A stretch of DNA of 64,000 nt from Hyphomicrobium sp. NDB2Meth4 (lineage in GTDB: Bacteria > Pseudomonadota > Alphaproteobacteria > Rhizobiales > Hyphomicrobiaceae). The notes beneath the pieces were generated by a model, which was not told the origin of the DNA, ran no database searches, and saw nothing but the letters and a program-made list of their open reading frames with translations. A program made the position numbers and the translations under genes. Location of the stretch: contig NZ_FPEJ01000013.1 of NCBI RefSeq assembly GCF_900117445.1, forward strand, positions 558,001 to 622,000, given 5' to 3'. Below are positions 1,093 through 44,908 of the stretch, piece by piece. Every line of letters begins with the position of its first letter. The stretch's first letter is position 1.

Positions 1093-5253
<4,161 letters not shown>

Positions 5254-5267
5254 CAGAACGAGACTTC

Positions 5268-5293
5268 GTCCGGGGCCGGCAATGGCCCCGGAC
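5268..5293 (+). promoter_or_regulatory. Perfect 10-bp hairpin between rpoB and rpoC
   Basis: GTCCGGGGCC at 5268-5277 pairs perfectly with GGCCCCGGAC at 5284-5293 around the loop GGCAAT. It begins 14 nt after the rpoB stop. No T-run follows, and the two genes must be co-expressed, so an mRNA processing or stability role is more likely than termination (inference). Confidence 0.45.
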
Positions 5294-5426: not shown

Positions 5427-9644
<4,218 letters not shown>

Positions 9645-43103: not shown

Positions 43104-44207
43104 TCAACCCTTATCGATGACCAGGATCACCTTCTCCTCGACTGGATCGACGATGGCCAGCTGGTCCCTGGCAACGAAGTAGCGGCAGGCGCTCAGTTCG
43201 TCGGAATGCACGGTGACTTCATCCGAAAACCGCTTCAGCTCGACATTCGAGGGTACGCTCCAACCTACCTTCAGGTCACGCACGTCGACCTCGTCATTCA
43301 TGCGCACCTCGTCGAGGATCATCTCCCGTTCGTCCCGGCTGAGACTGAGGCGCGCGGAGCAACGATCCGACCCGCCAGACCGATTGTTCGCATATCGGGC
43401 CCCGCCTGCCGGGACCACCGCAACGACCTCGTAGGTTTCGGGATCACAGATGACATACTCGTCGTCGGCATAGACGAAAACGTAATCGCGGTACTCCGGC
43501 ACGATCTCGATCACAGCGATCGGAACGGGCCGATAGTGCCAATCGCGAGGCAACCGACGCCCCACCGAGATATTGACGTCGACATGAGCACGCGGCTTGA
43601 GGTTCTTTTCTTTGCTGAACGCGCTGCGCAACCCGTCGCGCTTTGCCTCAGTAAGGTTGATGCGTTTGGCTGGCCTATCGCCGGACGCTTTGCTCTCAGC
43701 GCGCTCATCCGCGCTATCTTGGCCTTTCGCTTCGGACTGCTTGCTACCAGCTGCGCTGTCTTCCGTCTTGGCGTTTTGCCTGTCCTCTTTGCCCTCGGCT
43801 TTATCAGCGGCAGCCGCCTTTTCTTGCGACTTTGACTTGTCGCCGTTGTCGTCGGAAGGGCGAGCTTTGTCTGTCTTGCTTACGCTGCGCTCCTTGTCGG
43901 CGTTGCGTCCTTCGTGTTTTGAAGTTCGCTTTTCGGAGGGCTCATCGCTCTTGGCTTGCGACCGCTCACGCTGCCGCGGACTGTCTGCGCTCTGCTCGTT
44001 GGAACGCTCCATGGCGCGCCCCGCACCGCCGCCGTCACCTTTGGCGCCGCGCTCAACGTTCATGTCGGGACCGCCGCCGCGCTCAGCGGCTGGACCGCCT
44101 CCTGGGCCTCCCGCATCGTTGCCACGGGCCTTCGGTCCATCCTGCGCGATGGCCATACTCGCTGTGCCGAGCAAAAGCACTGCGAGCAAACTCGCGATCG
44201 TTCTCAT
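43104..44207 (-). CDS. Exported low-complexity protein with two DUF1236-like repeats
   Basis: A 367-residue protein starting MRTIASLLAVLLLGTASMAI, a signal peptide; GGAGAG precedes the ATG. Residues about 25-190 are highly charged low-complexity sequence (Gly, Lys, Asp, Glu, Ser). The C-terminal part has two repeats of the DUF1236 type: one around YVFVYADDEYVICDPETYEV and one around YFVARDQLAIVDPVEEKVIL. DUF1236 proteins are common in Rhizobiales and of unknown function. An EcfG-type promoter lies upstream at 44262-44286. Confidence 0.78.
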   Translation of the reverse strand: MRTIASLLAVLLLGTASMAIAQDGPKARGNDAGGPGGGPAAERGGGPDMNVERGAKGDGGGAGRAMERSNEQSADSPRQRERSQAKSDEPSEKRTSKHEGRNADKERSVSKTDKARPSDDNGDKSKSQEKAAAADKAEGKEDRQNAKTEDSAAGSKQSEAKGQDSADERAESKASGDRPAKRINLTEAKRDGLRSAFSKEKNLKPRAHVDVNISVGRRLPRDWHYRPVPIAVIEIVPEYRDYVFVYADDEYVICDPETYEVVAVVPAGGARYANNRSGGSDRCSARLSLSRDEREMILDEVRMNDEVDVRDLKVGWSVPSNVELKRFSDEVTVHSDELSACRYFVARDQLAIVDPVEEKVILVIDKG

Positions 44208-44575
44208 GTAAGCTCTCCAATTGACGTTCGAATTGCGCTCGTTGCGCGTTGGTGCAGCGGCAACGGGAGAGCCGGGAATGTGTTCCCGTTCGACGGGGCT
44301 GCGGGGCAATTCGAATAAGAATCATGTTCGGCGTGAACGCGAACGCTGTGGGCAGCGTTATGAGCGCCCGTTCTCCCCGCGCGCTCCCGTTCCGTCGTGT
44401 GTCACGGCCGTGCCCGCCCGTTCCGCGCTTCGTCGAGCGCCAGATCGGCCGCTGGCAACATGAACGGCACCTGTAATCGCCATTCAGAACGAGTTCAAAG
44501 CGAAGAATCCATTCTCCACCCCATCGAACACGCCGCACCGAAAGGGGGGCGGCTCTAACCGAAGAGGTGGACACC
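44208..44575. other. Divergent intergenic region
   Basis: A 368-base stretch between the divergent DUF1236 and 110-residue protein genes. It contains the EcfG-type promoter for the minus gene. No convincing promoter for the plus gene and no small gene was recognised; the several open frames seen here lack ribosome binding sites or family features. Confidence 0.5.
44262..44286 (-). promoter_or_regulatory. EcfG-type general stress promoter
   Basis: On the minus strand GGAAC (44286-44282) and CGTT (44265-44262) are exactly 16 nt apart, the consensus of alphaproteobacterial EcfG promoters (GGAAC-N16/17-CGTT). It lies about 55 nt upstream of the DUF1236 start, giving a leader of about 50 nt. Confidence 0.6.
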
Positions 44576-44908
44576 ATGAAGAAGATCATTCTCGCCGCTG
44601 CTACGGCTCTCGTTGCCACGACCGCCGTGGCTTCCGCTGACACCATCGCCCGCCGCCAGGCCCAGCAGGCCGACCGCATCGAGCAGGGCCGTCAGACCGG
44701 CTCCATCACTTGGACCGAAGGCCTGAAGTTGCGCGCCGAGCAAAAGCGTATCGCACGCACCGAAGATGCCTACCGCGACAAGGGCTACCTGACGAAGTCC
44801 GAGCGCCGCGAACTCCGCAGCATGCAGAACGAGGCCTCCGCCAGCATCGCCGAGAAGAAGTACAACAGCCGCGAGCGCGCTTGGTTTCTGCCACGCGTGG
44901 GCAAGTAA
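44576..44908 (+). CDS. Small exported protein of unknown function
   Basis: A 110-residue protein with a signal peptide (MKKIILAAATALVATTAVAS). The mature part is helical and charged (EGLKLRAEQKRIARTEDAYR, KGYLTKSERRELRSMQNEAS), reminiscent of small periplasmic proteins with a helical hairpin. GAAGAGGTGG precedes the ATG. A bidirectional-looking terminator follows at 44954. Function unknown. Confidence 0.75.
   Translation: MKKIILAAATALVATTAVASADTIARRQAQQADRIEQGRQTGSITWTEGLKLRAEQKRIARTEDAYRDKGYLTKSERRELRSMQNEASASIAEKKYNSRERAWFLPRVGK

Follow-up and report, generated by a model that had tools for sequence, protein, structure and literature searches.

The general stress response pathway is governed by a partner switch made up of PhyR, NepR and EcfG, and transcription from EcfG promoters begins about 5–9 nt after the −10 box. 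In the accessible text of the source papers, the consensus of these promoters is given as GGAAC-N16-CGTT for Rhizobium etli (PMC3892343) and as GAAC-N16,17-C/GGTT for Methylobacterium extorquens (PMC4814048). For DUF1236, a domain of unassigned function, the accessible parts of the literature report over-representation in plant-associated Proteobacteria (PMC554113), a listing next to nitrogen fixation in a table of domains linked to phenotypes (PMC12746109) and, for the Rhizobium phaseoli DUF1236 gene AMC88_RS16850, a fold change of ∼8 under aluminium (PMC8909678). Neither “EcfG” nor “general stress” occurs in the accessible text of PMC8909678. DUF1236 was not found paired with the general stress response in the literature searched; supplementary regulon tables may already list DUF1236 genes by locus tag.

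The DNA analyzed here is a 64-kb stretch from Hyphomicrobium, referred to as the window. A pattern scan of the whole window re-found an exact GGAAC-N16-CGTT match on the minus strand (44286–44262), at the position given in the original prediction. That prediction had also put the motif 55 nt before the start of a DUF1236 gene; the upstream placement stands, and the distance from the −10 box to the ATG (44207) was counted as 54 nt. Note that the open reading frame has an alternative in-frame TTG start at 44309, which would give a longer protein and place the motif within the gene. The ATG was chosen because it yields a signal-peptide-like N terminus, as in five aligned relatives. Coordinates of all features are collected in the table.

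Table. Features of the candidate EcfG-type promoter and of the DUF1236 gene downstream (window coordinates).
Feature	Position	Strand	Basis
−35 box GGAAC of the candidate EcfG-type promoter	44282..44286	−	exact match; kept upstream of orthologues
16-base spacer, sequence not conserved	44266..44281	−	3–7 of 16 bases common in six pairs of four same-genus orthologues
−10 box CGTT	44262..44265	−	exact match; conserved
Expected transcription start, ∼5–9 nt past the −10 box	44253..44257	−	expected from general EcfG promoter geometry
GGAGAG, ribosome-binding-site-like	44213..44218	−	read from sequence
Gene encoding an exported-looking protein of 367 aa with DUF1236 twice	43104..44207	−	open reading frame; Pfam PF06823, two stretches
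Signal-peptide-like N terminus, residues 1–21, A-x-A before Q22	44145..44207	−	sequence
Charged low-complexity stretch, residues 23–190, unstructured in the model as far as about residue 180	43638..44141	−	composition; block-mean pLDDT 40–56 up to residue 180
DUF1236 domain 1, residues 205–265	43413..43595	−	Pfam profile
DUF1236 domain 2	43113..43283	−	28.7 bits alone, below the 32.4 cut-off

On the plus strand, an imperfect GAAC-N17-CGTT (44334–44359) points at the divergent gene. It was not found in BWSM_147, a relative with the same neighbourhood, and was therefore set aside as a promoter of that gene. The divergent gene itself (44576–44908, plus strand) encodes an exported-looking protein of 110 aa with no Pfam family at E up to 1; it was matched in all eight same-genus genomes, the own genome included, and in 14/30 genomes overall, with 93% identity in genome G004.

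The exact match is the only one in the window, where 1.01 are expected per 64 kb. With about one site per 64 kb arising by chance, a lone motif proves little and conservation must decide. The whole genome holds 70 GGAAC-N16-CGTT matches versus 81 for the reversed pattern, and since the motif is thus not in excess across the genome, its use cannot be shown from counts alone. First-order Markov resamples contained the motif in 0.13% of cases for the 150 nt upstream of the gene and in 1.3% when the whole 368-nt intergenic region was taken on both strands. The motif is not above chance by number and is less likely by placement. For placement in the own genome, 18 of the 70 matches fall inside called genes; 19 intergenic ones have a start on their own strand no more than 150 nt away, and 7 point in the wrong direction; the corresponding values for the 30 of 81 reversed-pattern matches examined are 21, 3 and 2. 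This comparison counts as supportive, since the gene caller behind it was crude and placed none of the DUF1236 gene, phyR and nepR among the 19.

Upstream of the DUF1236 genes of three same-genus relatives, GGAAC-N16/17-CGTT stands at distances of 49, 52 and 54 nt from the ATG; in two more relatives labelled Hyphomicrobium the distances are 59 nt (a TGTT variant) and 41 nt. A MAFFT alignment of the upstream regions did not bring the boxes into register, and a motif-anchored comparison was used in its place. By this comparison the four closest sequences agree at 3–7 of 16 spacer bases and at 13–27 of 60 flanking bases, so the boxes have persisted in diverging surroundings. Across 12 close-relative loci, the own locus included, the strict motif was present upstream in six (L031–L034, L036 and L039) and absent in six (L035, L037, L038, L040, L041 and L043).

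For a family-wide survey, related loci were collected by a protein-only scan, which returned 73 loci labelled Hyphomicrobium and relatives, Bradyrhizobium, Mesorhizobium, Methylobacterium, Methylopila-type genera, Rhizobium and others. Excluded from these were one lacking a start (L094) and four lying at contig edges or lacking a credible start (L068, L077, L096 and L126), leaving 68 usable loci. In the 150 nt ahead of the start, the strict form GGAAC-N16/17-CGTT was present in 51/68 loci, the published form GAAC-N16/17-C/GGTT in 58/68 and GGAAC-N16/17-NGTT in 64/68. Thus 17 loci lack the strict form, and four (L058, L066, L085 and L100) lack even the NGTT form, among them L058, a Hyphomicrobiaceae-labelled relative with two domains. 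Broken down by group, the published form was found in 6/9 loci from Hyphomicrobium/Hyphomicrobiaceae, 16/17 from Bradyrhizobium, 18/19 from Methylobacterium, 2/3 from Rhizobium, 6/7 from Mesorhizobium (none of these with CGTT), 5/5 from Hansschlegelia/Methylopila/Chenggangzhangella/Chelatococcus, 2/2 from Beijerinckiaceae, 0/1 from Xanthobacteraceae, 1/1 labelled Hyphomonadaceae and 2/4 unclassified. All three Rhizobium loci have GGAAC-N16/17-C/TGTT. Locus L085, from a Mesorhizobium MAG, holds a tandem pair of DUF1236-like genes (∼2303–3534) with one strict EcfG motif ahead of the first.

Several controls were run on the same loci. On the opposite strand the strict form was found in 4/68, and strict boxes at each of 20 alternative spacings in at most 1/68. 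Resampled regions gave the strict form in a mean of 0.135 and a maximum of 2 of 68, and all 359 other letter orders of both boxes gave a mean of 0.28, the highest count (20) belonging to a pattern almost identical to the motif. Genes neighbouring those for DUF1236 in these loci, searched over a wider 240-nt window, carried the strict form in 7/292 cases and the NGTT form in 16/292. Note that the locus counts are not independent, as they include many close relatives and a few loci from one genome, and are confounded by shared ancestry.

A Pfam search detected DUF1236 in 68 of 199 genomes of the order. When the best DUF1236 gene was taken from each of 29 of these, the strict form was present in 12 and missing in 17; the published and NGTT forms were each found in 19/29, and none of the three in 8/29. 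A class-wide sample of 29 loci was searched over a 250-nt window, two of them (L147 and L154) having no usable start. Among the loci above the Pfam cut-off, the strict form was present in 7/18 and missing in 11/18, and the NGTT form was present in 11/18; below the cut-off, the strict form was present in 2/9. The link between motif and DUF1236 is strong in the closest relatives of the window, in Bradyrhizobium and in Methylobacterium, and it loosens as DUF1236 genes become more distant. Conservation of the motif upstream of orthologues, which had been proposed as a check, is therefore clearly positive without being universal.

Profile searches located a single NepR in the genome, adjoining an ECF sigma gene (NF009199, 241.8 bits, cut-off 219), with a gene for an HWE kinase and one for PhyR (NF006623, 358.6 bits, cut-off 240) nearby. 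The matching profiles name the sigma factor as ECF only; its designation as EcfG rests on position and family. The motif precedes both phyR (L046 5209–5233, ATG at 5278) and nepR (L046 7348–7373, ATG at 7258). The phyR and nepR-ecfG units, most often divergent according to the accessible text of PMC4814048, are convergent here (L046 5278–7258), both still with an EcfG motif. Other motif-bearing candidates for general stress genes in the own genome (L194, L019, L203, L021, L216 and L192) comprise a trehalose-phosphate synthase-type glycosyltransferase, an Fe/Mn superoxide dismutase, two CsbD proteins, an exported-looking protein without a Pfam family and a receiver-domain regulator, and a PRC-barrel gene is also among the called genes with the motif in front. 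Trehalose-phosphate synthase, superoxide dismutase, CsbD and PRC-barrel kinds of gene are usual in the general stress regulon.

NepR and DUF1236 tend to occur together. NepR was detected in 65/68 genomes of the order with DUF1236 (and not in the other three) versus 50/131 without it, and in the class sample in 14/16 genomes with DUF1236 above the cut-off versus 52/369 others. Shared ancestry accounts for part of this association. One genus member (G001) has NepR and no match to the DUF1236 protein, which makes the gene an optional output, not a component of the switch. Gene order was compared across 16 stretches, some covered twice. The flanking genes of the window were found in BWSM_147 only (L047 and L055), the remaining stretches giving a weak short-chain-dehydrogenase match and nothing else of the neighbourhood. 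Since the neighbourhood is kept in that one relative among the loci compared, the promoter travels with the gene.

The 367-aa protein belongs to PF06823 (62.6 bits, gathering cut-off 32.4), and the searches returned no other Pfam family in it at E up to 1 and no second DUF1236 gene in the genome. Two DUF1236 stretches were found in 10/10 relatives scanned. In residues 23–190, D/E/K/R make up 42% and A/G/Q/S/E/K/P/D/R/N 93%. Export is predicted from the N-terminal sequence pattern and a home-made score; A21 and Q22 are invariant in 31 aligned sequences. The description of a charged, low-complexity, double-DUF1236 exported protein with which the analysis began is thus confirmed for the two stretches and the composition, with the second domain below the cut-off when scored alone and export as a prediction. 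Cysteines occur at 254, 283 and 341; Cys 283 and Cys 341 are present in all of six aligned sequences but L036, and Cys 254 in the four closest.

The structure model averages a pLDDT of 67.9; its first half is unstructured, and two domains, mostly above 80, follow beyond about residue 180. For model residues 184–268, the best fold match is the CigR C-terminal domain 4ew5 (Z 6.5, 84 residues, rmsd 3.2), followed by 2l1s (Z 4.7, 69 residues, rmsd 3.5), which we take to be RcnB-like; the next listed row is at 2.9, and the best Foldseek E was 0.0099. By sequence the protein falls outside the CigR family (NF040487, 17.6 bits versus a cut-off of 78). A profile search of solved structures returned mostly nanobodies, which were taken for chance, with CigR at E 0.31. 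No pairing of CigR with RcnB was found in the literature searched.

We consider it highly likely that EcfG, the general stress sigma factor, drives expression of the exported-looking DUF1236 protein from a functional promoter at 44262–44286. The site is very probably a true EcfG-type promoter, which would add a gene to the known regulon. Membership of the PhyR-EcfG regulon, as put forward in the original prediction, gains support from conservation of the motif and from the presence in the genome of PhyR and NepR and of an ECF sigma gene next to nepR. That a nine-base pattern simply happens to precede the DUF1236 gene would agree with the one match expected and found per 64 kb and with the lack of a genome-wide excess; it is nevertheless highly improbable, given that position and spacing are kept before many relatives whose spacers have diverged and that the strict form precedes most surveyed DUF1236 genes and few of their neighbours.

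The site could also serve a different ECF sigma factor that recognizes GGAAC at −35, for instance an envelope stress sigma of the RpoE type, since GGAAC is the −35 box for other ECF factors, E. coli RpoE among them (accessible text of PMC8103513), and the DUF1236 product resembles an envelope protein. This is improbable, because CGTT at 16–17 nt is the EcfG consensus in the accessible text of PMC3892343 and PMC4814048, the identical motif stands ahead of phyR and nepR in this genome, and DUF1236 co-occurs with NepR. Unlikely, though compatible with EcfG control, is an arrangement in which the site works alongside other promoters and most expression is of the housekeeping kind; some general stress targets, 2126p and 3874p, have basal EcfG-independent expression (accessible text of PMC4814048).

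With EcfG as the preferred sigma factor, stress would activate PhyR, which would take up the anti-sigma factor NepR and so release EcfG. RNA polymerase bearing EcfG would then act on GGAAC and CGTT, and transcription would start ∼50 nt ahead of the ATG. The product, a long charged disordered stretch with two small folded DUF1236 domains, would be exported and would probably help to protect the envelope when the cell meets salt, drying, starvation or metal stress. This protective role is our best guess for the protein, and regulon membership is a clue to function, not a function.

As a family, DUF1236 proteins look like general-stress outputs: with the same promoter motif ahead of many related genes in other bacteria, the family probably belongs to what this response regularly produces. 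It is a tentative proposal, to which we give slightly less than even weight, that the entire family is a dedicated alphaproteobacterial general stress output, consisting of CigR-like-domain envelope proteins, some with long hydrophilic disordered stretches, that shield the periplasm from drying, salt or metal stress. If so, the presence of DUF1236 would predict EcfG regulation, and this family-wide link is the part most worth following. Across many soil-dwelling, plant-associated and methylotrophic bacteria, the domain would acquire a probable regulatory context, and the link tells which conditions and mutants suit a search for its role. The case also illustrates how checking orthologues can decide on a solitary motif match that carries no statistical weight.

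Among known proteins, the CigR C-terminal domain (4ew5) and 2l1s give the best fold matches to model residues 184–268, which makes a CigR-like fold a candidate. Unlike these, the Hyphomicrobium protein has two domains and a long disordered stretch, and lacks CigR sequence membership; a common fold would say nothing on function. AMC88_RS16850 is a comparable gene, its product having a signal peptide, DUF1236 and a predicted location in the inner membrane and periplasm (accessible text of PMC8909678). As for the promoter, those of Rhizobium etli and Methylobacterium extorquens are tied to mutant transcriptomes in the accessible text of their sources, whereas the Hyphomicrobium site is tied to EcfG by sequence conservation only; the boxes and their spacing are alike in all three.
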